From: a virus
Reading direction: 5' to 3' (one strand)
DNA length: 45,101 nt
Virus record (IMG/VR): IMGVR_UViG_3300042908_000860
Span: 1-45,101 of that record
The notes beneath the pieces are model-generated. The model saw only the letters and a program-made list of their open reading frames with translations, had not been told where the DNA came from and did no database searches. How positions within the stretch are numbered: position 1 is the first letter of the stretch; each line of letters opens with the position of its first letter. Shown piece by piece: positions 165-45,101 of this stretch. A program made the translations under genes and the position numbers.

Positions 165-467
165 TCAGGGCGGCGGCAGGCGTAGATGGATCCTGATCTG
201 TTGGAGTTCTTTGTCCTGCCGCTCGTTCACTTGATCTTGCCTGTTATCGGTTGCGTCCTTTCTTGCCATGAAAGACACTATTTTTTCGCACAAGCCATCA
301 AAAGAGGTTTTGATAGTGGCAATCTGCACAGCGTGTTGATTCATCTGGCTGGCCGCACCTTGCACAGCGCCGAAGAAGCTGGCGGCAGCGACGCCAGCAA
401 TGCCGATCAGCAACGGCCCAACCCACGCGGGGACGCCCTGGCGCTGATTGGTGCCGTTGTCGGTCAT
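165..467 (-). CDS. Small membrane protein with coiled-coil tail, lysis region
   Basis: A 100-residue protein. A polar N-terminus is followed by one hydrophobic segment (about residues 14-34, rich in Gly/Ala/Ile), then a soluble part with heptad-like Gln/Asp/Arg-rich sequence (about 70-92) that could form a coiled coil. The start ATG at 467 overlaps the stop of the upstream gene (464) as ATGA, implying translational coupling. It is the last gene of the late minus-strand operon. Position next to the endolysin and the one-TM-plus-coil layout suggest a holin accessory or spanin-like role, but no lipobox or clear family signature is visible, so the role is inferred from context. Confidence 0.7.
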   Translation of the reverse strand: MTDNGTNQRQGVPAWVGPLLIGIAGVAAASFFGAVQGAASQMNQHAVQIATIKTSFDGLCEKIVSFMARKDATDNRQDQVNERQDKELQQIRIHLRLPPP

Positions 468-829: not shown

Positions 830-1570
830 CTACTGGGGCCGCACATCGAGGGCCCACCCGGTGGCGGGGCCGTCGGCTTCCCAGCGGCGGCCCCAATTTT
901 TCCGGCTGTAGTGGATGCCGGCGCCGCCCGAGTGGTTGACGTAGCCGCCGCCGATCAGATCGGCTTCGCCGTTCGGGTCGTTGTGGATCCAGTCGGTGGG
1001 GGTGCAGCCGATCACGACGGTCCAATGGCCGCCGCCGGTGGGCGCAGTCGATGGGCCCTTGTGCAGCCAGCCGACGGGCACGGGCCGGCCCGCGGCCAGG
1101 GCGCCCTCCAGGAAGGCGGCGGTGCAGTTCGTCACCAGCCTGGCGGAAAGGCCCAGGTGGCGCAGGGTGGCGATCTGCGCCTCTGAGTTGGTGCTGTCAC
1201 CGAACCGGGCGCGGATCTTGTTGTAGGCGTCGTCGCCGGTGACCTTCCCGTAGAACGCCGCGACCATGGCGCAGCTGCTGCTGAAGCATTCGCGGTAGCC
1301 GGTGCCGCTGGCGTTGTCGTTCTGGCTGAAGTAGGGCACTTTCAGCAGGATTCCGGCTTCCGGGTGCGGCTTGTCGGTCAGCTTCTTGCCCGTGCTCCAG
1401 GTGCTGAACCACGGTTCAGAACGGCGCATCACATCGACGTAGGGCCTGCCCTTCATCAGTTCCGCTTCAAGCTCCACAATGGCGGCATCCTGCCGGGCGG
1501 CGGCTTCAGTGCCGGGGGCAGCCTTGTAGCGCCAGAGCTGCTGAAACGTGATGGGCGCTGGGTTGGTCAT
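830..1570 (-). CDS. Endolysin-like protein with C39-type cysteine peptidase domain
   Basis: A 246-residue protein. From about residue 78 it shows the layout of the peptidase C39-like (papain-fold) family: VPYFSQ, then ECFSSSCAM with Cys95 seven residues before Met as in the family's catalytic motif, an Ala/Tyr/Gly helix after it, GGHWTVV carrying the likely catalytic His, and WIHNDPNGE carrying the third residue. The N-terminal 75 residues could be a wall-binding or linker region. It sits directly after a small membrane protein (ATGA overlap at 1567-1570), typical of an endolysin in a lysis cassette. Cleavage of peptidoglycan cross-bridges is inferred; a virion-associated peptidase is an alternative. 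Confidence 0.75.
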   Translation of the reverse strand: MTNPAPITFQQLWRYKAAPGTEAAARQDAAIVELEAELMKGRPYVDVMRRSEPWFSTWSTGKKLTDKPHPEAGILLKVPYFSQNDNASGTGYRECFSSSCAMVAAFYGKVTGDDAYNKIRARFGDSTNSEAQIATLRHLGLSARLVTNCTAAFLEGALAAGRPVPVGWLHKGPSTAPTGGGHWTVVIGCTPTDWIHNDPNGEADLIGGGYVNHSGGAGIHYSRKNWGRRWEADGPATGWALDVRPQ

Positions 1571-5185: not shown

Positions 5186-7207
5186 CTACGCCACAGTGGC
5201 CGCCGCCACCTCCCGGGCGATGATGCTGCAGCCGTTGTCGTCTACCGGGTGGTGGGATGCCTGGATCGTCCAGGGCCCCAGTAGGGGGCCGCTGATGCTC
5301 TCGATCTCGTAGAGGTAAGACCAGATCGAGGAGGCCCCCACCGATGGGTTACGCGCCCGGTCCTGCCGCACGATGTCGCCGGCCCGGAGCGCGGCGATCT
5401 GCGGGGTAGGGGTCACGACCCAGGAGGCGTCATGGGTGATGTGCCGCCGCTGCGCCAGGCGTAGCGCACCAGCTCGGACCGCGTGGAGCTCTCGCGTGAT
5501 GAACTCGGACCCATCCAGGTCCGTCCATGGGCCGTCGATGGCGGTGCCGGCGTAGCGCACCTCCGTGGCTTGGGTGACGCCCACATCGTTCTCGGGCTGG
5601 TCGCGCCACAGCACCAGGGCCGCAAACGGCTTGCGGTCGGCGATCGAGCGGCGGGTGATCTGAAACTGGCTGCTGTTCGATTCGTCGAACGCCATCACCG
5701 GTGTGATGGGGCTGGTATCGATCGCGTGGGCGATGGTCACCGGCAGGGCCGGGCGGAGACCCAGCAGGCCCCATCGATCTGTGACGCGCAGCAGGTGCAT
5801 GGGCGCCATGAGGCTCAGGTACTCGCGCACGTTCGCCGGGTTGGCGATCACCCCATCGAAGGTGATGCCGTTGGCGGCACAGAACCTGGCAGCTGCGGTC
5901 AGGCCCGACACGTCGATCAGCTGGGACGGCATCCGGCCGGAGGCGATCAGCAGGTGATGGGCCACATCAGGGAAAAGGTTCGTAGCGCCAGGCGTGCCTT
6001 CGATGAGGCGATGGATGGGCTGGCCGTTGCGGATGAAGAAGTGCGCCTGACGCTGCCAGCCCGTGTCACCAGCTGCGTAAGTCCTGGAGAGGGAGACGGT
6101 GGTGAGGCCGGCGTAGGTGCCGCCGGTTCCGCAATAGATGGTCGCCTCGGGTTTGGGTAGGGGCTCGCTGTTCTCCTCGGTAACTGTGATGTCATACGTC
6201 ACGCCAACCAAGCCGCCGTAGATGCTGGCCGCGTAGGTGCCGTCGGAGACATTGTGGAATGCGCTGGCGTAGGTGAGAACCGCGCCGTTCACATACTCAG
6301 AAGCCTGGAACGAGATCCCGCCGTAAGTCTCCAGTGAAGCAGGGCGGGTGACTTGATACTGAGCCAAGTTGATGTTGCGCCCGAACCTGGCGCGGTCTAC
6401 CAATGCCTGGTTCGGTGAGATCCACCAGATCTGAGTCCCGTAGCCATAGGCCCGAATCACGGCATCATCCAGGCTGCCATCCGGCGATGGCCCAGCCAGT
6501 GGATCGTCAGCAGGGAACCACGCTTGAGAGGCGTAGTACGCAACGGTTGGCGCTGGGTAAGGTATTCCGGTTGGATAGACCTGGCCCTTGTACGCCTTTG
6601 TCCTGCCAGCCGTCGGCCAGTTGACGTGCTTAATTACGTCAATCTTAAAACTGGTTATGTAGTTACCGCTGCTCTTGATTGAGATTGTTGCTACTTGTTC
6701 GTCGATGTGGTTGGCCAGCTGTTCATCAGTGGCGAATGAGGCAAGGTCCAGCATGGGGCCAACGCCGATCGGCTTGCCCTCGATCACCTCCCGCGTGCTG
6801 GTGGTGGTCACCTCAAACCGCTGCTGGATGAAGTTGCCGGGCGCCCAGCTGGCAGCTCTGGCGCCGTACGCCTGCACGATCTCGCCCGACGAAAGCTGTG
6901 TGTCGCCCTGGTAGGCGTCGGTAGCGGCGATCGTTCCGAGCTGGCCATCCGCCAGCACCAGCAGGTAGGAGGCCGTTACCCGGTTGGCTGCGTCGTTGGT
7001 GAAACGGCACTCGGCCGCCGGGGGCGAGATCAGCACCCCGCCGGTGGAGCCGGTGCGCTTGCCGATCACCAGCGGGATCGCCTGCCCGAGCTCTAGCGCT
7101 GTCTGCTGCCCGTTCAGATCAGCCCTCACCGACAGGTTGTCATTGCGCACCACCTGCCGGCGCTGCGCGGCGAGCGTGGGGACGGCAACGGCGGGTGTGG
7201 AAGGCAT
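5186..7207 (-). CDS. Tail tip / host-specificity protein (gpJ-like)
   Basis: A 673-residue protein, ATG 7207, three bases after the preceding hub-like gene. It is long, beta-rich and situated after tape measure and hub genes, where lambda-type phages encode the central tail-tip protein that forms the end of the tube and contacts the host. The N-terminus carries a Gly-Gln-Ala-Ile-Pro-Leu-Val-Ile-Gly segment like the conserved opening of tip proteins; the C-terminal third has several Arg-Asp/Trp segments. It is shorter than lambda J (about 1,130 residues), so adhesion is probably shared with the following tail genes. Family call by position and overall pattern. Confidence 0.6.
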   Translation of the reverse strand: MPSTPAVAVPTLAAQRRQVVRNDNLSVRADLNGQQTALELGQAIPLVIGKRTGSTGGVLISPPAAECRFTNDAANRVTASYLLVLADGQLGTIAATDAYQGDTQLSSGEIVQAYGARAASWAPGNFIQQRFEVTTTSTREVIEGKPIGVGPMLDLASFATDEQLANHIDEQVATISIKSSGNYITSFKIDVIKHVNWPTAGRTKAYKGQVYPTGIPYPAPTVAYYASQAWFPADDPLAGPSPDGSLDDAVIRAYGYGTQIWWISPNQALVDRARFGRNINLAQYQVTRPASLETYGGISFQASEYVNGAVLTYASAFHNVSDGTYAASIYGGLVGVTYDITVTEENSEPLPKPEATIYCGTGGTYAGLTTVSLSRTYAAGDTGWQRQAHFFIRNGQPIHRLIEGTPGATNLFPDVAHHLLIASGRMPSQLIDVSGLTAAARFCAANGITFDGVIANPANVREYLSLMAPMHLLRVTDRWGLLGLRPALPVTIAHAIDTSPITPVMAFDESNSSQFQITRRSIADRKPFAALVLWRDQPENDVGVTQATEVRYAGTAIDGPWTDLDGSEFITRELHAVRAGALRLAQRRHITHDASWVVTPTPQIAALRAGDIVRQDRARNPSVGASSIWSYLYEIESISGPLLGPWTIQASHHPVDDNGCSIIAREVAAATVA

Positions 7208-7210
7208 GGA

Positions 7211-7678
7211 TCAGAGACGGCAGGGGGTGCCCACGAGGGCGGTTGTGAACCGACGGGGCGGCACCTGCGCGCCGAGCGATTCGAGGGCAGATCCGACCGT
7301 GATGGTCACGGTCGAGGGGAACACCTCGCCGCCGCCAGTCACCTCTCCGATCGCGGTCAACAGCACCACCTGCCCCGGCGGGGGGGTGTCGGGCCGGGTC
7401 GGCAGGTCGAACTGGTAGACGGTGATGGTCGCCAGCCAGCCCTCTGCCATGGCGTCATCGGCGGCGGTGGAGATCGCCGTGAGGCCCGGCAGGGTGATCG
7501 TGAGATCTGTTTCGTCAGCGCTGCCGGTGTTAGCCAGGCCGTCGATGGTGAAGTCCACGAACTGGTAGGAGTCGGCCCCGATCGTGACCGGCGCCTGGCG
7601 GTAGAACGACTGCAGCGTGATTCCGGTGGCGTTGGTGGTCGGCTCCCACAGGCGGAGGAAGGTGGCGTGTTGGATCAT
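7211..7678 (-). CDS. Minor tail / hub-like protein (gpL or DUF1833-like)
   Basis: A 155-residue protein starting at ATG 7678, overlapping the tape-measure stop as ATGA. It has alternating beta strands, a central Asp-Leu-Thr-Ile-Thr-Leu-Pro strand followed by an Ala-rich helix, and a short Pro-Pro-Arg-Arg-Phe tail with a terminal Cys. Small proteins of this pattern directly after the tape measure make the distal tail or upper hub of siphophages. I cannot separate gpL-like from DUF1833-like by eye. Confidence 0.55.
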   Translation of the reverse strand: MIQHATFLRLWEPTTNATGITLQSFYRQAPVTIGADSYQFVDFTIDGLANTGSADETDLTITLPGLTAISTAADDAMAEGWLATITVYQFDLPTRPDTPPPGQVVLLTAIGEVTGGGEVFPSTVTITVGSALESLGAQVPPRRFTTALVGTPCRL

Positions 7679-10600
7679 CGGATGCCCAGCTTCTGGCGGT
7701 AGGTGATCGAGCGAAGGTTGCCATCCATCTGCGCGACTGCCTGGCGGGCGGCATCACTGGCGAGCGCCTGCGCCTGCGCCAGCGTCACCCGGTCCTCGCC
7801 GTCTTGGCGCACCACCTTGTCCACGCGGGTGTTGATGGTGATGCCGCCGCTGGTGCCTGGCGCGCCGTGACGCACCATCGAAGCGCCGCCGCCGCGGAGA
7901 TGCGCCGGTGACGACAGGGTGCCAGATCGGCCGGTTGTCGTGCGCATCGACACCCCACCGCCAGAAAGGGCCGCCGCTCCAGTGGCGCCACCCAGCACAG
8001 CTTGAGCAAAGCTACGGGCCTTCGATCGCGGCACGACATGCTCCGGCTCCCCCCCCTCTCCGATCAGCGCAAGGGTGGGCTTGGTGACGTAACCGCCGGT
8101 AGCAAAGCGGGGGATGTTCAGTTCCGGGATCCCGGCCGGGCGATTATTTCCAGACCAAAAACCCATAAGACCACTGAACATATTATAAAGCCTGTTCATT
8201 TGGGCGATGAGTCTATTAATCGCATCTTGGATAAACCCAACAATGGAATTAAACACTGATCGGACACCATTGACGACACCATCCCACACAGACATAACCG
8301 CATTGGCAGCGGATTCCATGGCATTGGGCAGCAGCCGAGTCAGGCCCGTCCATGCGTTCGTGATCGGCCTAACCACCAGGCTGTTGAAATTGTCGCCGAT
8401 CTCCTTCCACTTCCCGTTGAGCCACTTCACCGCTACGAAAGTAACATCCTCGACCAGCTTCCACGCGGCCTCAAATCCTGCCTTCATGTTCTCCCCAAGC
8501 CACGACAGAAACTTGGTGATGGGCTCACGGAACGCGATGGCCATGGTGACCACGGCCGCCACCGCAAGCACCGTCCAGCCCACTGGGCCAGAGAAGAAGG
8601 CGATCAGTGCCGGGCCGATGGTGCCGGTGAGGAAGCCGAGGAAGCCGGTAAAGGCGGCGCCAGCAGCCGCCAGAGACGGTCCAACGATTCCGGCAAACCC
8701 GGCAATCGCCGCACCGGCCGCTTGCATGCCAGCAATCACGCCTAGGCCAAACTTGACAGCCTGAAACGCTGTGATCGCGATGACAACCGCGTTCAAGATC
8801 GGCCCCAGTGGGCTGGCAGCCACGGCCAACACTCCGAAAGCAGCGGCAACCAGGCGGAGCGGACCTGGCAAGAAGGCGAGGATCTGCAACCCGGCGCCCC
8901 ACCTTGCAAGCAATGCAAGCGAGAAAATACCACTGACGGCACTTGCCAAGCCAACGGCGCCAACAATTAAAGGCGTAAAAATCTTTCCGAATACCGTAAC
9001 CCTTGCGAAATAATTGACCAGCCCACTCATGGCTTGCGTAACGCTTGCCAGTCCGCCAACAAAAAAGCGCAATACCGGAAGCAACGTGTCAAGCGTTGGC
9101 TTGAGTGCCTCGCCAAGCGCAACGCGGAGCCTGTAAACATCGTTCACAAGCAGCGTGATTTGATTGGCAGTTGTTTCCGACCGGATTCCATACTCTCTGT
9201 TCACCGAACCAGCCGATGCCGTTGCGTCAGTCGCTGCCTTAAGCACCCTTTCCAGTTCTGACATATTGCCAATCAACTGAGGGAGGCCCCTGGCTTCATC
9301 GCCAAACAGATCACGCATGACCGAAGTTTGCTGCGCTTTAGGCAGTTTGCTGATCTTGCCTAATATCTCGATCAAAAACTTTGATCCATCTTTCTGCAAT
9401 CGCTCAGAGAAGCCGAGCTTCCAGGCGTCGGCGGCATCCTCTGCCTGCTTCTTTTGTTCTTCCTCTATTAGCTTCTGTGCTTTTTTGAATGTTTCAATCT
9501 TATCCTTCTCGCCCCTTTCGTACGCCTCTTGCTGCTTCCGAATGCCATCCTGTTCGTTTCGTTCTCGCGTTTCAACCGCCTTTATTGCCGCCTGCTCCCG
9601 GTCTCGGGCCGCGCGACGTTCAACCTTAAGGCGATCATCTAGCCCGTTTTCTATGACCCGTCGCTGAGAATCAAAACCCTCCTCTAGCTTTTGCATTTCC
9701 GCGTCTTGCAGGTCTCGATACCGGCGACGCAGAGCGTTCAGCTCGCCATCCATCTGCCGATCTAGCATCCGCTGGCTTTCTTCTGAGGCGGTGCGTGTGA
9801 GTGCCTTGTAGCGGTCGCGAATGCCTTGTTCCTCTATCCGCTGCTGGTCTTCGTAGTAGTCGCTCAGGCCCTTTCTGGCAGCGCTTTCGCGCTGCTGTAG
9901 CGCCCTGGTCTCTTTGTCCGCGGCAGCATTGATCGCCCGCTCCCTGGCGTCTCGTTCATCTTCCCACTGATCTTGCAGTGTCTGTTTCACACGCGCATAG
10001 CGATCATCGATCTCGCGAATCAGCTTCTCTGTTTCATCCTCGGCAATCTCTAATCGCCTACGGCTTTGTTCTTCGACTTCTTGGGAAAAATCCCGCTCAC
10101 CGGTGATCGCAGGCTTGAAAGCATAGCCTAAGTCGTTTAGAGCGCTCACCTGCCGATCGGTCATGCTCTTTCCTGCAGAGAGCGCCTTGATCATGTTATT
10201 GAAGCTGGTGGCGGCGATCTCGGTTTCTACGCCTGTCTGCTGCATGGCCGCACCAAAGGCCATGGTTTCCTGTGCGCTCAACCCTGCAATCTTGCCGGTG
10301 GCGCCGGAGCGAGTCATGAACTCAACCAGCCCTGCCGCACTGGCACCGCTGACGTCGGAGACATAGTTCATGGCATCCGCCAGCGACGCCACCTGCTTGG
10401 TTGTCAGACCCAGCGATACCCGCATCTGAGCGAGAGCCGTACCGGCCTCCTGGGCCGTCATGTCAAAGGCGGTGGAGACTTTGGCGACCAGCACCGAGAA
10501 CTCTCGAAGCTCGCCCCTGGCGATCCCGCTGGCGCCAGCTGCTGCGTAGATCTCCGTGAAGCCCTTCGCCGTGATCGGCATCTGACTGGAAAGCGCCAGG

Positions 10601-21088: not shown

Positions 21089-23002
21089 CTACCGGCTGAT
21101 CCACTTCTCGCGCACCCCACGGGCCTGGCTTGGCCGCTCGATCCATCCTGCCCGCTTGCCATCGGCGCCCGGCTGAGCTGGTGGAGGAGAGGCCCCCCTG
21201 GCGCCGCCTTCCGCCAGCCGCTCCAGCTGGTCCCACATCGTCGCTCTGTTGTATTTCCGCTTCAGCAGCTCCAGCATCGCCAGGCAGTACACCTCCAGGT
21301 CGAGCGGTTCATTCCTCGCACCCGATGGGCAATGCCACTCCAGCACCTGGAACCCCTTCACGTACCGCGGCTGCAGCCGCTCCGCCGTCAATCCCGCCAG
21401 ATACTCCTCCGTCGTCTCATCATCAAAATGCACGTAGCCAGGGCCTGGCTCCGCAATCTTCAACCTGCTGTAGACCGTCCGCTTCAACCCATGGCCGCCC
21501 ACCATGTACAGCGTCAAACCATTCGCGATCGTCCGGCCCCTGAACGTCACATCGATCTTGTTGCCCTTACTCAGCGCCGGCGCGTCCCGCTTGTTCGCTC
21601 CCTTGATCGCCACCACCCCTTCCCTCGTGTGCTCCCGGGCCCAGTTGTAAGCCTCCGGCGTGAAGTGCCCCGCCGTGTCCACCGCACAAAACCGCACCCG
21701 CATCGTGCCGCCACCCTCTCGCGGGAAGTCGGTCCGCAGAATCGTCAGCACCTGATCCCACACATCATCTTGCGCCGGGTCGCCCTCGATCTTCTGGTGC
21801 CACACCCGCCAGCTTTCATCACCCCTGCCATACCCCTTCACCACCACCTCCAGCCAGGTGTCCTGCACGTCCACGCTCATCAGCAGCACCAGCACACCCG
21901 CCGGGCATGTCCCCGCCCGATACTCACCCGCCCGCACAATCAGCCCGTCAGCGCTCACCTTCGCCAGCGCTTCGTCCTCCCACGCCTCCGCGGCTCGCTT
22001 GTTCACCCAGCCCTTGAGCAACAGCGGATCACCATGGGCCCGCAGAAACTCATCCCTGATCTGCTCCCACGGTGTCCACCCCGCCGGCGCATACCACCCG
22101 GGCAGGTGGAAGCCTGCCGTCATCCCATCACCCGCCGCGCTCGGCTTCCATACCGCGCCCATCAACATCGCGGTCTTGTGTTCCTGTCCCACCCGTTCCC
22201 CGCAAGCCGGGCATCGCATCCACACCTCCCCATCCGGTCGGTCCCATTGCGCATGTTCCCGCCACTTCAGCACCTCATGGGCGCCGCAACATGGCATCAA
22301 CGCCGCATAACCCCGCCGGTCGCTGCGCTTCTCATACTCCTCCGTGATCCTGCACGCTCCCCTTGTACCCGGCGTGCTCGTGATCAGCACCTTGCCCATC
22401 GGGAAAGTACTAGTCCTGGTCTCCGCATTCTCCAGCGGGTCGCCCTTATCATCCGCCTCCATCGGGTAGCTGCTCACCTCATCCGCCGCCAGGTTTGCGG
22501 CCGGCATGCTCTGCAGCCCGCTACCGCTATTCGCACCCGTCAGCACGAACAGCCCCCCGCGGAACTCTTTCAGAAACATCGTGTTCCCGCTGTCCCGTGA
22601 TCGGGCCGGTGCAATCAGCTCTGTCAGCACCGGCGTTTCCGTCAGCAGCGGATCCAGCCGCTGCCGATTCAACCGCTTCGCCATGTCTAGCGTTGGCTGC
22701 ACCAGCAGCGTCGGGCCTGGCCATAGATGGATGATCGCCCCCAGCCAATTCAGCACCACTTCCGTCTTCCCCATCTGGCTCCCGAACATCAGCACCACCC
22801 GCCGCCACGGGCTTGACGGGCTCAGGCAATCCATCGGTTCCCGCAGGTAAGGCGTCCGATCTGTTCGCCATGGCCCCTTCTCCGCTGATCCCTTCCCGCT
22901 TAACCATCGGTAGCGATCCGCCCATTGACTAACCGTCATAGGGTCAGGCGGCGTCAGCCCTTCGGCGAAAGCCTGCCGGTAAATCGTTGCTGCGTCAGCC
23001 AT
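21089..23002 (-). CDS. Large terminase subunit, GpA family
   Basis: A 637-residue protein, like lambda A (641). The start is taken at ATG 23002 (8-base overlap with the small terminase) over a longer frame from 23023. Walker A GSQMGKT at about 74-80, Walker B Ala-Asp-Glu at about 173-175, and a C-terminal nuclease with Val-Asp-Thr-Ala-Gly-His typical of the family. A Cys-rich stretch (Pro-Cys-Cys-Gly ... Cys-Pro-Ala-Cys-Gly) near residues 240-270 is a zinc ribbon seen in many GpA proteins. GpA terminases often cut at cos sites; no cos could be identified here. Confidence 0.92.
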   Translation of the reverse strand: MADAATIYRQAFAEGLTPPDPMTVSQWADRYRWLSGKGSAEKGPWRTDRTPYLREPMDCLSPSSPWRRVVLMFGSQMGKTEVVLNWLGAIIHLWPGPTLLVQPTLDMAKRLNRQRLDPLLTETPVLTELIAPARSRDSGNTMFLKEFRGGLFVLTGANSGSGLQSMPAANLAADEVSSYPMEADDKGDPLENAETRTSTFPMGKVLITSTPGTRGACRITEEYEKRSDRRGYAALMPCCGAHEVLKWREHAQWDRPDGEVWMRCPACGERVGQEHKTAMLMGAVWKPSAAGDGMTAGFHLPGWYAPAGWTPWEQIRDEFLRAHGDPLLLKGWVNKRAAEAWEDEALAKVSADGLIVRAGEYRAGTCPAGVLVLLMSVDVQDTWLEVVVKGYGRGDESWRVWHQKIEGDPAQDDVWDQVLTILRTDFPREGGGTMRVRFCAVDTAGHFTPEAYNWAREHTREGVVAIKGANKRDAPALSKGNKIDVTFRGRTIANGLTLYMVGGHGLKRTVYSRLKIAEPGPGYVHFDDETTEEYLAGLTAERLQPRYVKGFQVLEWHCPSGARNEPLDLEVYCLAMLELLKRKYNRATMWDQLERLAEGGARGASPPPAQPGADGKRAGWIERPSQARGVREKWISR

Positions 23003-23549
23003 CTGCCAGCACCCGCAAAGCAACCCTGATCTCTTCTATCAACAAAGCGTGAACTTCTCTTGTATCGTTTATTGCGGCAAGCTGGGGAGACAACCTATCG
23101 GCAATGCCCATCATTCCATCGCGCACAGCGCGCCCTGTTGCAAATGCTTGAGTCCTTACCTCGCGGCTGGGCAACAATTCTCCTGTTCGCTCTTTGTATT
23201 CAAGCTCAGTCAGCTTGGCCTCATACGCTGCCTTTACCTGCTTGCTTACCGCCAGCGACGGCCCGCCGTTGGTGGCTGGTGGAGGGGGGGCGGCTACGGC
23301 AACTGCTTTCGCCGTTGCGTGTCTTGGCTGTGTTGCAGTGCCGATTCCCATTGCCCCCTGCTCTCCGGGGTCAGTGCGAGCTGCCCATTGAGCATCAGCC
23401 AGTGCAGGATCAATCACCCAGTTTCTGCCTTCACGACGCACGGCAGGTTCGCTTAGCCGGCCGTCATTGATAGCGTTGAGCACTGCAACATGCGAGGCGC
23501 CACGTAGCCCAAGCGCTTTGCGGTGGTTGGCGTAGGCCTGGAGGTTCAT
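22995..23549 (-). CDS. Small terminase subunit
   Basis: A 184-residue protein immediately before the large terminase, close to lambda Nu1 (181). The N-terminal 50 residues form a winged-HTH-like unit (Ala-Tyr-Ala-Asn-His-Arg-Lys-Ala-Leu-Gly, then Ala-Val-Leu-Asn-Ala-Ile-Asn-Asp-Gly-Arg-Leu, Trp-Val-Ile-Asp-Pro) for DNA recognition. Residues 70-95 are an Ala/Pro linker; the rest is a helical Lys/Glu-rich oligomerisation region. ATG 23549 overlaps the methyltransferase stop as ATGA. Confidence 0.8.
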   Translation of the reverse strand: MNLQAYANHRKALGLRGASHVAVLNAINDGRLSEPAVRREGRNWVIDPALADAQWAARTDPGEQGAMGIGTATQPRHATAKAVAVAAPPPPATNGGPSLAVSKQVKAAYEAKLTELEYKERTGELLPSREVRTQAFATGRAVRDGMMGIADRLSPQLAAINDTREVHALLIEEIRVALRVLADG

Positions 23550-41419: not shown

Positions 41420-41585
41420 GCACATCGGCAAATATGCCGAGGTCTTGATTTCTTCCGGTTCAGGAACAATCGTAACTTCACTGCTCGACAAGGCCGAACA
41501 GAAACAGTTGGCCGATGCCTTCCGAGGTGTCGCCGACGAACTAGACACCACCCACCCCACGGAGACCCCCGATGAGCACGCCTGA
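41403..41585 (+). CDS. 60-residue protein, unknown
   Basis: GTG 41403 with GGAG upstream, overlapping the previous gene. Compact beta-helix pattern: Val-Arg-His-Ile-Gly-Lys-Tyr-Ala-Glu-Val-Leu-Ile, Thr-Ile-Val-Thr-Ser-Leu-Leu, then Lys-Gln-Leu-Ala-Asp-Ala-Phe. Overlaps the next gene by 14 bases. Unknown. Confidence 0.55.
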   Translation: MILSVRHIGKYAEVLISSGSGTIVTSLLDKAEQKQLADAFRGVADELDTTHPTETPDEHA

Positions 41586-42408
41586 CCCCACCCCCACGCC
41601 GCTGCCGGCCGCGCCCGACTGGAGGGCGTTGCTTGAGGAAATGACCCAATCCCTGTCCCTTCTCGACAAACCGCCGCATGATCTCCTGGCCAGAGCACAG
41701 GCGTTTCTGGCCGCCACCACGGACCGCACCCGCTTGGTGATCTCACTGGCCACCCCGCCGGCCCCATCCCCGGAGCCCCGTGGCTGCCCGACGCCTGGGG
41801 CCTGTAGCTGCCCCACAGCGCCAATTGTGCCGCCGGAGCTGATTCGGGCGCTGGAGCTGGCGGAGGAAGCACTGGCGGACATCGGCGACGCAGAGCGCGA
41901 GCCGGGTGATGACATCGCGTGGGCCGAGCGTCGCGCCGCCCAAGACCTGCCCCGCGTCCGCCATGCGCTGCAGACCTGGCGCGATCACGCCACTCCGCCG
42001 GCCGCCACCCGCGAGGCGGGGCCGCTGCCGCAGGCGGGGGCGGAGATCAGTGATAAGGAGATCGATCAACTGGAAGCGTCTATGTGGGAGCCGACTGGCG
42101 TACACGAGCAGGGGCAATTAGAGCAGATCTTCAACTATCGAGCCTTCGCCCGCGCCGTGCTTGCCCGCTGGGGCGGCGCAGTGGTGCAGCCGGTGCCGGT
42201 GAGTGAGCGGCCATGGAAGCGGCCTGGCTGGTGCGATGCGGAGGGCCGGTGCTGGTGTTTTGCAGTGGGAAGAAACTGGCGCTCCGGTTACTCTGCCGAT
42301 CGCGCGTGGATGCTTCGACAGCCTGAACCGGGCGTGTACGACACCCACTCGCTGCCCCACTGGGCGATGCCGGTGCCCGCCGCCGCCGCGGGGGAGGTGC
42401 AGCCATGA
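41572..42408 (+). CDS. 278-residue protein, C-terminus DUF551-like
   Basis: ATG 41572 with GGAG upstream. Pro/Leu-rich N-terminus with a Cys-Pro-Thr-Pro-Gly-Ala-Cys-Ser-Cys cluster (about 72-80), a central helical region, and a C-terminal Pro-Gly-Trp-Cys ... Trp-Cys-Phe and final Leu-Pro-His-Trp-Ala-Met-Pro-Val-Pro. The last element matches how DUF551-type phage proteins end (THWxPLPxPP). Family call weak. Tightly coupled to the downstream gene. Confidence 0.5.
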   Translation: MSTPDPTPTPLPAAPDWRALLEEMTQSLSLLDKPPHDLLARAQAFLAATTDRTRLVISLATPPAPSPEPRGCPTPGACSCPTAPIVPPELIRALELAEEALADIGDAEREPGDDIAWAERRAAQDLPRVRHALQTWRDHATPPAATREAGPLPQAGAEISDKEIDQLEASMWEPTGVHEQGQLEQIFNYRAFARAVLARWGGAVVQPVPVSERPWKRPGWCDAEGRCWCFAVGRNWRSGYSADRAWMLRQPEPGVYDTHSLPHWAMPVPAAAAGEVQP

Positions 42409-42581
42409 CCCCCAAGGAAATCGCCGCCGCCATGGTCGCCGCCTACATGGACCGCTGCGACCGCATCGGCCCGCTTGAGGACCCGGAGCCTGAGTGCCTC
42501 GCCGCTGCCCTGCGTGCCCTGCCGCGCCTGCCCATCCTGGACCTGGCGGCCGTGATTGATGCGCTGGAGGCGATGGGATGA
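42405..42581 (+). CDS. 58-residue helical protein
   Basis: ATG 42405 preceded by GGAGG; overlaps both neighbours by ATGA. Helical, with Ala-Ala-Ala-Met-Val-Ala-Ala-Tyr-Met-Asp, Cys-Leu-Ala-Ala-Ala-Leu-Arg-Ala-Leu and Val-Ile-Asp-Ala-Leu-Glu. Unknown function; probably real because of its coupling and strong ribosome-binding site. Confidence 0.6.
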   Translation: MTPKEIAAAMVAAYMDRCDRIGPLEDPEPECLAAALRALPRLPILDLAAVIDALEAMG

Positions 42582-42808
42582 TCCCCGCCCCCGTCTCCTG
42601 GTTCGCCATGGGTCTTGTGTTTGGGATGCTGCTATGCGGCTATCCCTGGCATCCCCGGTTCAGCCGCTACCAGCCCCGCCGCCGCCGATCCGTGCCGCCT
42701 TCCCCGCCGCGTGATCCACAGCCCCGCCCAAGCGGCACTGGCCCCGTGCTGCCCGTCCTTCCCGCCCCTCCTCGACTGCGCCCCAGGCGCCGCCAGACAT
42801 GGCGTTGA
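42578..42808 (+). CDS. Small membrane protein with basic Pro-rich tail
   Basis: A 76-residue protein, ATG 42578 with GGAGG upstream. One hydrophobic segment (about residues 8-21: Phe-Ala-Met-Gly-Leu-Val-Phe-Gly-Met-Leu-Leu) followed by an Arg/Pro-rich cytoplasmic tail. The tail may be translated GC-rich filler. Unknown. Confidence 0.45.
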   Translation: MIPAPVSWFAMGLVFGMLLCGYPWHPRFSRYQPRRRRSVPPSPPRDPQPRPSGTGPVLPVLPAPPRLRPRRRQTWR

Positions 42809-43038
42809 CGCCTGCCGAACGCACCCGCCTGTATCGGCTCCGCAAGGCGGGGGAGCTCCCACCAGCCCCCGGCCGGTGGTGCGCGACGCCCGGTTGCCCG
42901 AACCGCAGCCATGGCAACCACGGGCCCCTGTGCTCGCGGTGCTGGCTGAAGTTCACACCTGAGGGCAGAGAACAGCGGGCCGAGTGGGCCCGGCAGCAAC
43001 GCCGCCGGCAACGTGATCGCGATGGCCCCGGCCGATAG
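42799..43038 (+). CDS. Small zinc-ribbon-like protein
   Basis: A 79-residue protein overlapping the previous gene by 10 bases. Basic N-terminal helix (Thr-Arg-Leu-Tyr-Arg-Leu-Arg-Lys), then Trp-Cys-Ala-Thr-Pro-Gly-Cys and Leu-Cys-Ser-Arg-Cys with His residues between (CxxxxC-x14-CxxC), a zinc-finger arrangement, and a highly basic C-terminus. A DNA-binding or nuclease-accessory role is plausible. Confidence 0.6.
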   Translation: MALTPAERTRLYRLRKAGELPPAPGRWCATPGCPNRSHGNHGPLCSRCWLKFTPEGREQRAEWARQQRRRQRDRDGPGR

Positions 43039-43160
43039 ACTCCCAGCGGGTGTCCGGTCAGCCCCTAACCGCAAGGCGGGGCGTCGCCGCTGGCTGTTGG
43101 GGTCATCGGAGGGAACCGAAGCCGGGCACCCCCCTACGACCCACAACCGGCCATCTGTTC

Positions 43161-43205
43161 ACAACGGATGGCCTACCATCAACATGCGGGGAGGTCCCGC
43201 ATTCC
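43161..43205 (+). promoter_or_regulatory. Divergent promoter module, copy P4
   Basis: ACAACGGATGGCCTACCAT (43161-43179) aligns without gaps to element B of the other copies at 12 of 19 positions. It is followed by a hairpin GCGGG-GAGGT-CCCGC (43186-43200) and the C-rich leader to TTG 43220. No clear A element at 31-33 bp upstream, so this copy is weaker. Confidence 0.5.
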
Positions 43206-43219
43206 ATCCCAACGAAACA

Positions 43220-43495
43220 TTGTCACAACCACATCTACGCCCGCGGTTTTCCTGCGTCGGGCGAATCCATAGCCTCACGATCGATAACGGCTTCGCTACC
43301 TGGAAGCTCCAGGAACCACGCAATGGTGAGCCGTTTGATTTCAGGTTGAAGACCACCAGTCCCGACGTTCTGGAGCAGCTGGCCACCATTGCGGATGGTG
43401 CGCTGGTTGGTGTGATCGCGTCGTTGGATCGAGCATCGGCGCCAGGTGAGCCGTACACGGTGACGCGGTTGGAGGTGCTGAGCCGTGACCGCTGA
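43220..43495 (+). CDS. Small beta-rich protein, OB-fold-like
   Basis: A 91-residue protein read from TTG 43220, chosen because leaders of the other modules end at the same distance from the hairpin and no ATG fits (an upstream ATG at 43183 lies in the promoter). Strands Cys-Val-Gly-Arg-Ile-His-Ser-Leu-Thr-Ile, Phe-Ala-Thr-Trp-Lys-Leu, Phe-Asp-Phe-Arg-Leu, Leu-Val-Gly-Val-Ile-Ala-Ser-Leu and Tyr-Thr-Val-Thr-Arg-Leu-Glu-Val-Leu are in the order of a five-strand OB barrel. Single-strand DNA binding is a possibility. Overlaps the next gene. Confidence 0.5.
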   Translation: MSQPHLRPRFSCVGRIHSLTIDNGFATWKLQEPRNGEPFDFRLKTTSPDVLEQLATIADGALVGVIASLDRASAPGEPYTVTRLEVLSRDR

Positions 43496-43757
43496 CATCC
43501 CCAACCGCGATGAGCAACACGGCGGCATGGAAGCCGTCGGTGCGCTCAGTCAGAACCTGAAGGGTTGTCTTCGACGGAGTAACGGCTGGAGCCGGTTGGA
43601 TTCAGGCGAACGCGAAGCGCTCGACATGATCTGCCACAAGCTCGCACGGGTGCTCTCCGGCGATAACCCCCACGATCCGGAACACTGGCGCGACATCGCC
43701 GGTTATGCCGTTGCCGCCCGCCGGGCGGATCCACCTGCTGGCCCTACGGCCACCTAA
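43485..43757 (+). CDS. DUF6378-like small phage protein
   Basis: A 90-residue protein from GTG 43485, overlapping the previous stop. Its core (Glu-Arg-Glu-Ala-Leu-Asp-Met-Ile-Cys-His-Lys-Leu-Ala-Arg-Val-Leu-Ser-Gly-Asp ... His-Trp-Arg-Asp-Ile-Ala-Gly-Tyr) matches the pattern of a common small phage protein family (DUF6378-like, from memory). Function unknown; located in the operon leading to the haloperoxidase. Confidence 0.55.
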   Translation: MTADIPNRDEQHGGMEAVGALSQNLKGCLRRSNGWSRLDSGEREALDMICHKLARVLSGDNPHDPEHWRDIAGYAVAARRADPPAGPTAT

Positions 43758-43782
43758 CCACCCAACAACCCAACAGCAGATC

Positions 43783-45101
43783 ATGCCCAATCAACAGTTC
43801 TCGAAGGGCTTCTATGCCGAGGATATGGCCGCCGCGCTGGAGGCCCCGGCCGAGAATCGCGCCGCTGCCTTCGCCGCCGTTCGCCTCAAGTCACAGGGCG
43901 GCATGCTGCCCGTCAACCCCCGCGCGGGCACGTTGCCGGCGTTGGAGCTGGTGGAGGAGCTGCCCCCATTTCCTGCGGATGACAGCGCCACCACCGCGGC
44001 CGAGCTGATCCAGATAGCGATGGCCACCGCCTGGTTGGCGGATGTGCCCCTGCGGGATCTGCGCACCACCATCCAGGCCGCCGGTAACCCCCTCGAAGGG
44101 CTGGAGGTGGTGCTGGGCGCACCGGTGCGGCCCGCGGCTGCGTTCCGCCTGGTGGACCAGGAGAAGAACAAGACGCCGATGATCTCGCAACTGCTGCTGC
44201 GGCCATTCGAGGCGGGCAGTCTGGCGATCGATCTCCGCCACCGCCTCGACCTGGGGCACTACGGATACCGCCCGGAGACGCTCACGGCGCTGCTGAACGG
44301 CAAGCCGATCGAGTCGCAGGTGACCAGCTCGCGAACCCACTACATCCACACGCTGAGGGCGCTGGCGTCGAGCATGCGGGCCGATCCGCCGTACCTCTAC
44401 GGCCTGCTTGCCGCCTGCATGCTGGACACCCTGGGGGCGAAGCGCAGCAGCCTGTTCCCGGCGCTGCCGAAGGAGGCTGGTTTCGTGTTCTACGGCGGCC
44501 AGCTGGATGCGCAATGCCTGCTGGTGCAGGCGGTGCGCCAGGCGATGAGCATGACGTGCTGGATGCAGAAGTGGGAGCAGGGCCAGGAGCAGCGGGCCCG
44601 GCCCGAGGAGCTCATGGCAAACCCAGAGCGGCTTCATCCGCTATGGGCCGAGCGTGGCGCGCCGCTGCTGGCCCGCCATGGCATGGGCCCCCATCTGCCG
44701 CTGCTGTCCGCGAAGGGTTCACCGATTCATCCCAGCTACGTCTCCGGCCACGCCGTGATCGGCGGCGCCGTGGCGACGGTTTTGAACGCCGTCTACCGGG
44801 ACGCTCCCTGGCCGGTGGCGATGGTGCAGGCGGACCCGTTGGGCCTGGAGCTGGTGTCTGCGAATGCGACAGCCCCCACCATCCACCAGGAGACACGGAA
44901 GCTGGGCGAGAACTACGGCATCGGGAGGGTGGTCGGTGGCCTCCACTACCTGTCAGATGTGCGCCAGGGTCTGCTGTTGGGGCAGCGGGTGGCGGAGCAG
45001 GTACTGAGGGGCGCCAAGGTGAATGCCAAGGTGCAGGAGATCGAGGAGTGGGGATCGACCACCTTTGAGGGCTACTTCGGTACTACGGTTTCAATCCCCT
45101 G
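43783..45101 (+). CDS. Vanadium-dependent haloperoxidase-like protein (3' end continues at 1-164)
   Basis: A 439-residue protein when joined through the circular junction. It carries the haloperoxidase/PAP2-type active site: Lys263-Trp ... Arg271/Arg273-Pro-Glu (vanadate oxygens), Pro-Ser-Tyr-Val-Ser-Gly-His (Ser321, Gly322, His323, acid-base His) and Gly-Arg-Val-Val-Gly-Gly-Leu-His-Tyr (Arg382, His388, the vanadate ligand). The Lys-Trp-to-Arg-Pro spacing is two residues longer than in algal bromoperoxidases, and Val replaces the Pro before Ser-Gly-His. No signal peptide. Uses H2O2 to oxidise halides, or may be a phosphatase-like relative. Last gene after P4, 25 bases after the DUF6378-like gene. 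ATG 43783 has no Shine-Dalgarno sequence. Confidence 0.8.
   Translation, partial: MPNQQFSKGFYAEDMAAALEAPAENRAAAFAAVRLKSQGGMLPVNPRAGTLPALELVEELPPFPADDSATTAAELIQIAMATAWLADVPLRDLRTTIQAAGNPLEGLEVVLGAPVRPAAAFRLVDQEKNKTPMISQLLLRPFEAGSLAIDLRHRLDLGHYGYRPETLTALLNGKPIESQVTSSRTHYIHTLRALASSMRADPPYLYGLLAACMLDTLGAKRSSLFPALPKEAGFVFYGGQLDAQCLLVQAVRQAMSMTCWMQKWEQGQEQRARPEELMANPERLHPLWAERGAPLLARHGMGPHLPLLSAKGSPIHPSYVSGHAVIGGAVATVLNAVYRDAPWPVAMVQADPLGLELVSANATAPTIHQETRKLGENYGIGRVVGGLHYLSDVRQGLLLGQRVAEQVLRGAKVNAKVQEIEEWGSTTFEGYFGTTVSIP
44939..45101. repeat. Right copy of 163-bp terminal direct repeat
   Basis: Matches 1-163 with one synonymous difference (45066 T, 128 C). It lies in the haloperoxidase gene and allows the genome to be closed at 44,938 bp. 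See the left-copy entry. Confidence 0.95.

Follow-up and report, generated by a model that had tools for sequence, protein, structure and literature searches.

Does the gene that closes a 45,101-nt viral contig encode a vanadium haloperoxidase, and what would a phage gain from such an enzyme? The contig, IMG/VR record IMGVR_UViG_3300042908_000860, was analyzed over its whole length and is called the window here. A sequence-only reading had placed the gene in the vanadium haloperoxidase family, with a phosphatase-like paralogue as the alternative.

The Reading Frame Is Completed Across Redundant Contig Ends

The reading frame opens with an ATG at 43783 on the plus strand and is still open at the window end, 45101. 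The two window ends consist of the same 163-nt direct repeat (1 to 163 and 44939 to 45101, 99% identical); thus, the record is terminally redundant. Because the ends are this repeat, the last codon, cut after TG, is finished as TGA at the other end, giving a protein of 439 aa (Table 1). The haloperoxidase gene had been described as the last gene. This holds for its own strand, but with redundant ends the opposite-strand lysis and tail genes come directly after it. A near-identical gene (97% identity) is present complete with its stop codon (ORF 6477 to 7871) on a separate phage contig, L003, in which the order of early genes, haloperoxidase gene, and endolysin and tail genes is unbroken. An alternative in-frame start that would lengthen the protein lies at 43705; the protein read from 43783, however, starts at a conserved F-(S/A)-K-G stretch, and so do those of L003 and two further relatives, L038 and L009. 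The repeat copies differ at one silent position (T at 45066, C at 128, both Phe), suggesting either a mixed population or overlap in the assembly and not one clonal genome.

Table 1. Coordinates of the haloperoxidase gene, its active-site motifs, and other features of the window
Feature	Position	Strand	Remark
Vanadium bromoperoxidase (VBPO)-type gene, residues 1 to 439	43783..45101	+	TGA stop finished at 162 to 164
C-terminal part and stop of the same gene, other contig end	1..164	+	Terminal redundancy
Terminal direct repeat copy	44939..45101	.	Other copy at 1 to 163; one silent difference within the gene
Motif 1, W260-x2-K263-x9-R273-P-E275	44560..44607	+	Presumed vanadate-binding Lys and first Arg
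Motif 2, H316-PSYV-S321-G322-H323	44728..44751	+	From alignment
Motif 3, R382-x5-H388-x3-D392	44926..44958	+	Presumed second Arg and vanadate-ligand His
90-aa gene directly upstream	43485..43757	+	Matches PHROGs without assigned function; ends 25 nt ahead of the ATG
100-aa convergent gene directly downstream	165..467	−	Related 87-aa gene at the same place in L034
Endolysin	830..1570	−	phrog_10051, E 9.4e-74
Large terminase subunit	21089..23023	−	73% identical to S-CBS1, 75% to S-CBS3

The Gene Lies Between Replication and Lysis Genes of a Cyanophage

The window encodes proteins with matches to families for the large terminase, portal, head maturation protease, tape measure, tail, and endolysin, confirming that the gene is phage encoded. 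Judged from sequence relationships, the phage is a Synechococcus-type siphovirus. The cyanobacterial host proposed earlier is supported by relatedness, namely that of the terminase to those of Synechococcus phages S-CBS1 and S-CBS3 (Table 1); likewise, all five phage records matched by a tail protein of the relative L037 infect Synechococcus (S-LBS1, S-CBS1, S-CBS3). The haloperoxidase gene was absent from the S-CBS1, S-CBS3, and S-LBS1 records by tblastn, and the available portion of the S-LBS1 paper mentions no peroxidase.

The gene is the last on a strand that also carries helicase, Erf-like annealing protein, exonuclease, and dCTP deaminase genes, and it converges on the 100-aa gene and the endolysin gene. 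Its earlier assignment to an early-type operon apart from virion genes therefore stands with respect to strand and upstream replication genes, but across the contig ends the gene abuts the lysis/tail module. A scan of 42400 to 45101 returned no promoter-like sites and one terminator-like site, no more than in shuffled sequences.

Two further observations concern this neighborhood. A 278-aa protein encoded at 41572 to 42408 has no PHROGs or PADLOC match, and its relatives lie upstream of the haloperoxidase gene in L034 to L038. A role in defense was considered and dropped, as PADLOC returned no match for the haloperoxidase, four nearby window proteins, or a Rhizobium relative described below.

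The Protein Carries the Bromoperoxidase Active-Site Set

In the phmmer chain alignment with the Ascophyllum nodosum VBPO I (PDB 1qi9), nine of nine active-site positions match. Specifically, W260, K263, R273, H316, and S321 correspond to Ascophyllum W338, K341, R349, H411, and S416, and G322, H323, R382, and H388 to G417, H418, R480, and H486. These positions have catalytic roles in the Ascophyllum enzyme, and H316 falls at the halide-site position, which is Phe in chloroperoxidases. Across an alignment of 32 rows (the window protein, L003, 18 other viral proteins, and 12 cellular proteins), W260, K263, R273, H316, G322, H323, R382, and H388 are invariant (32/32), as is R273-P-E with K263, while position 321 varies, mainly between Ser and Ala. 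With three plasmid-borne bacterial rows and one near copy added (36 rows), H323 and W260 are only nearly invariant, because some of the plasmid-borne bacterial copies are eroded. Thus, K263, R273, S321-G322-H323, R382, and H388, all named in the sequence-only reading, are present, but R271, named with them, is not a conserved Arg.

One feature of the active site counts against haloperoxidase activity. As read from the alignment, the K263-R273 spacing is 10 in the window, L003, and L038 proteins but 8 in most relatives, and also in the Ascophyllum enzyme, whose motif 1 is K-x7-RPE; the window protein thus has two extra residues between Lys and Arg, and the loop that places Arg273 differs.

Could the protein have lost catalysis and serve as a scaffold or binding protein whose active site is a relic? 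Some plasmid-borne bacterial relatives lack key residues, with no His at 323 in the Polymorphobacter (P0005) and Microvirga copies. In the viral rows, however, all catalytic positions are intact, the sole variation being Ser or Ala at 321, and the solved Acaryochloris marina enzyme also has Ala at the equivalent position. We regard a dead protein as highly improbable.

The bacterial plasmid copies merit description in their own right. The His of Ser-Gly-His is lost in L007 (1083 to 2978, Microvirga plasmid) and in P0005 (Polymorphobacter plasmid), yet the latter is annotated as a vanadium-dependent haloperoxidase. The relative on a Rhizobium phaseoli plasmid (L004, 2659 to 3786) has Gly-Gly-His in place of Ser-Gly-His, is annotated "hypothetical protein," and adjoins genes annotated as an AbiGi antitoxin and a Shedu nuclease.

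Sequence Searches and the Predicted Fold Favor a Bromoperoxidase over an Acid Phosphatase

Every one of the 10 PDB sequences that phmmer found for the window protein at E ≤ 0.001 is a vanadium haloperoxidase, with 1qi9 at the top (E 5.7e-20), and a profile of the 32-row alignment found 11 at E ≤ 1e-5, all bromo- or haloperoxidases. The Pfam PAP2 model (PF01569) gave 26.6 bits (E 5.7e-6), just under its curated cut-off of 27.2 bits, which we count as a point against the assignment; homology to the PAP2 superfamily is clear from the tests other than this score. The AlphaFold2 monomer model, a prediction helped by the homologues in the 32-row alignment, had a pLDDT of 85.6 and a pTM of 0.89. All 12 PDB matches that Foldseek returned for the model at E ≤ 0.001 were VBPOs (1qi9, E 5.7e-17). 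In VIA comparisons, the model superimposed on 1qi9 with a Z of 36.8 and an rmsd of 2.6 over 413 of 438 residues. Z was 30 to 37 for all VBPO entries listed, 11 to 17 for chloro- and iodoperoxidases (iodoperoxidase entries, 15.1 and 14.9), and 12 to 14 for acid phosphatases, with 185 to 196 residues aligned. Active-site residues, sequence, and predicted fold thus agree on the haloperoxidase family assignment. The gene is intact and has the full bromoperoxidase active-site set together with a predicted VBPO fold.

Class A acid phosphatases (PhoC, PhoN, E. blattae AP) have a four-helix pocket with Lys, Arg, Ser-Gly-His, Arg, and His. A phosphatase-like paralogue would hold phosphate in this pocket and dephosphorylate a nucleotide, lipid, or sugar during infection. 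Such a reading is consistent with the shared pocket, with the position of acid phosphatases as the next fold group, and with the title of PDB entry 3bb0, according to which vanadium-free vanadium chloroperoxidase catalyzes dephosphorylation. The phosphatase fold match is partial, however, and both the sequence searches and the structure prediction placed the protein far closer to the bromoperoxidase subfamily. His316 and Trp260, halide-site residues of the bromoperoxidase type, are invariant (32/32), and there is no signal peptide as for a periplasmic phosphatase. Membership in class A was rejected on the NCBIfam PhoC model (E 0.15, 11.6 bits versus a 430-bit cut-off) as well as on the fold scores. 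We therefore consider a phosphatase unlikely and retain the bromoperoxidase assignment.

The phage protein is nonetheless distinct from the solved enzymes. It shares 26% identity in the structural alignment with the Ascophyllum VBPO, an algal and not a viral enzyme of 556 aa. The cyanobacterial haloperoxidase of A. marina (5lpc, 8q20, 8q21) resembles it in fold (Z 30 to 36) and motifs but has Ala before Gly-His where the phage protein has Ser, has a 666-residue chain, and is not a sister of the phage proteins in our tree. Algal VBPOs are dimers or higher oligomers.

Relatives Are Found in Several Kinds of Viral Contigs

Scans of IMG/VR revealed 26 contigs with a relative of the haloperoxidase in addition to the window. 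These comprise window-type contigs (L003, L038, L009, L034, L035, L036, L037), marine or low-GC phages (L018 to L027, L032, L033, L177), large contigs of 95 to 619 kb (L028 to L031), and two with weak relatives (L039, L040). No match was found by tblastn in 50,697 GenBank phage records with the window protein and the relatives L018, L027, and L009, nor did E. coli genomes contain a match. Phage hallmarks in the window-type set include a terminase in L003, a major head protein, endolysin, and DnaB in L009, and tail or lysis genes in L034, L037, and L038. Among the marine or low-GC set, L020, L022, and L023 have a terminase and L026, L027, L032, and L033 a T4-type portal, which is marginal in L025 (E 5.6e-4); L018 carries a Clp protease gene and, by eye, a GroEL-like gene. 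L019, L021, L024, L028 to L030, L039, and L040 showed no hallmark among the phage families searched, and L031 had one terminase match, far from the haloperoxidase gene. With so few hallmarks, L028 to L031 could represent huge phages, plasmids, or elements of another kind. These four contigs share the haloperoxidase gene and several neighboring gene clusters.

Seven further contigs of the window clade have the gene at the same position. In window-type contigs with enough flanking sequence, it faces lysis or tail genes encoded on the opposite strand. The endolysin gene lies 666 nt away in the window, 339 nt away in L009, some 400 nt away in both L003 and L038, and 3.5 kb away in L034; in L037, a lysozyme gene is 1.8 kb away. 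L009 has another head gene and helicase type, yet shares the arrangement of the window. In L023, a transglycosylase gene and genes for small proteins that probably span the membrane precede the haloperoxidase gene on the same strand. The haloperoxidase gene is thus repeatedly near lysis genes, but in the window it does not form one operon with them.

The T4-like contigs (L026, L027, L032, L033) depart from the earlier statement that the gene is not with virion genes, as their copies come after portal and major head genes and before long, repeated, probable fiber genes; from our reading of gene order, L020 and L022 copies are also flanked by probable fiber genes. This T4-like gene order is the reason for retaining as a rival a virion-associated enzyme that would sit on the particle and target either the host surface or rival phages. 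Against it, the gene in the window and its clade is on the replication-gene strand, opposite the virion genes, and the protein matches no virion family. Indeed, a virion structural protein, the best match that would have spoken against a haloperoxidase, was not found among the PHROGs, none of which the window protein matched at E ≤ 1. We judge a virion role to be quite unlikely, and favor an enzyme of the infected cell.

Two neighbors of the relatives are also of note. A gene upstream in the T4-like contigs (L032, 7439 to 8398) was considered as a phosphate transporter and rejected, having no Pfam match. In L035 (9258 to 9842), L036 (3000 to 3584), and L037 (9255 to 9842; PF00353, E 1.9e-6 in L037), the gene immediately before the haloperoxidase gene codes for a calcium-binding repeat protein of the RTX type.

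The Gene Is Accessory, Under Purifying Selection, and Apart from Sampled Cellular Enzymes

Comparison of the window and L003 genes (68 differing nucleotides, 438 codons) gave a dN/dS of 0.145, and that of the window and L038 genes a dN/dS of 0.25; the gene is under purifying selection. It is also accessory, which we count against the favored function. A related endolysin occurs in 47 viral loci and the haloperoxidase in just one of these, L121, which is the L003 contig; with the count limited to the 28 loci with 2.5 kb or more of sequence downstream, 1 of 28 has the haloperoxidase.

In two unrooted trees, a branch separates 20 VBPO-type viral proteins from the sampled algal, cyanobacterial, and other bacterial enzymes, with support given as SH-aLRT values, without bootstrap, of 99 and 100. 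Each tree includes half of 80 cellular loci, and the second adds the Ascophyllum, Corallina, and Acaryochloris enzymes. The viral rows are 20 of 27 (26 contigs and the window), leaving out the near copies L032, L036, and L037, the cut L033, L177, and the weak L039 and L040, which have very long branches. When L039 and L040 were added, in a tree that also restored the Rhizobium row absent from the second tree, both fell outside the viral branch and the other 20 stayed together (support 100). The Acaryochloris and Corallina enzymes and a Pseudanabaena plasmid copy group together, apart from the cyanophage proteins. Bacterial loci annotated "vanadium-dependent haloperoxidase" (L041 to L120) share the motifs and full-length similarity but lie on the other side of the tree, and 73 of 80 have Ala in place of the Ser. 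Given unrooted trees, only two cyanobacterial rows, and long branches, a single viral lineage, present in several unrelated uncultured phages, is the simplest reading of these sequences rather than proof.

Is the gene instead recent host cargo without a phage function, taken from a cyanobacterial bromoperoxidase? VBPOs do exist in cyanobacteria (A. marina, 5lpc), and among phages whose endolysins are related the gene has a scattered distribution. However, purifying selection acts on it, and the locus is common to phages whose haloperoxidase proteins are just 33 to 38% identical. The phage proteins are, moreover, apart from the Acaryochloris and Pseudanabaena enzymes in the trees, and an AU test, limited by long branches and by a group picked after tree inspection, rejected uniting six window-type rows with Acaryochloris, Corallina, and Pseudanabaena (p 0.00065), that is, capture from a sampled cyanobacterial VBPO. 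Recent cargo thus appears distinctly improbable. In a genome contig scan with an L011-led viral alignment, 80 of 414 loci were kept, with no cyanobacterium among the 80.

A Cytosolic Haloperoxidase Is the Favored Function

A twin-arginine motif followed by a hydrophobic stretch was found in 0 of 20 viral rows and in 32 of 79 bacterial loci with a complete N terminus, both figures being simple pattern counts made without a trained predictor. The missing signal suggests that the phage enzymes would remain cytosolic until lysis, or enter virions.

On the strength of the predicted fold and active site, the protein probably, though by no means certainly, catalyzes vanadate-dependent halide oxidation, and it would most likely be a cytosolic haloperoxidase that uses host H2O2 and bromide or iodide. 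The compact, signal-less enzyme would fold in the cytosol of the infected cell, bind vanadate via K263, R273, S321, G322, H323, R382, and H388, form peroxo-vanadate with H2O2, expected to be plentiful in an illuminated cyanobacterium, and oxidize bromide or iodide to hypohalous species. Peroxide would thereby be lowered, and nearby organic molecules might be oxidized or halogenated, both while infection proceeds and once the cell has lysed. The dying cell and the lysate could receive hypobromous acid or halogenated products. Fresh and estuarine waters are poorer than seawater in bromide and vanadate, which counts against this proposal.

As for the benefit to the phage, peroxide removal with diffusible halogenation is our first choice, but it is a tentative guess. 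The roles suggested in the sequence-only reading (peroxide detoxification, hypobromous acid, quorum signals, and surface polymers) are likewise conjectural. Bromoperoxidases are described as protecting organisms against reactive oxygen (PMC6299022), and the macroalgal and cyanobacterial enzymes as releasing freely diffusible hypohalous acid that can act on quorum signals (PMC8407465). A broader picture, which we offer as somewhat doubtful, is that phages own an old vanadium haloperoxidase lineage without export signals, passed between cyanosiphophages, T4-like phages, and tailed phages of other kinds. With it, they would convert peroxide from the host and halide from seawater into reactive halogen, either inside the infected cell or when it lyses. 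Vanadium-dependent halogen chemistry would then be a viral trait. Algal and bacterial halogen-activating enzymes help drive natural organohalogen production; should tailed phages have a bromoperoxidase lineage of their own, infection itself might contribute to this chemistry or divert it.

No report of a phage haloperoxidase was found among the titles and abstract openings of the open-access papers listed by our searches. The nearest precedent found in print is the cyanophage flavin halogenase; one review gives flavin-dependent halogenase genes in 20 of its 153 cyanophage genomes (PMC10452541). These enzymes (VirX1 type) are likewise halogenating and cyanophage encoded but are unrelated flavin enzymes; if our reading is correct, they gain a second, unrelated counterpart. 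At 439 aa, the window protein is a compact member of a family whose solved members have 556 to 666 residues, and should be easy to express and test.

The gene seems nameless in phage resources, given the PHROGs and Pfam results above. Among viral predicted structures, phage proteins gave no match to the model at E ≤ 0.001, and the good matches were confined to giant viruses (Hokovirus, Sylvanvirus, and Yasminevirus; E 2.8e-21 to 1.3e-18). These giant-virus proteins (BFVD A0A1V0SGK0, A0A3G5AI90, and A0A5K0U6L7) have full-length bromoperoxidase-like predicted folds and are labeled just as PAP2 superfamily or uncharacterized.
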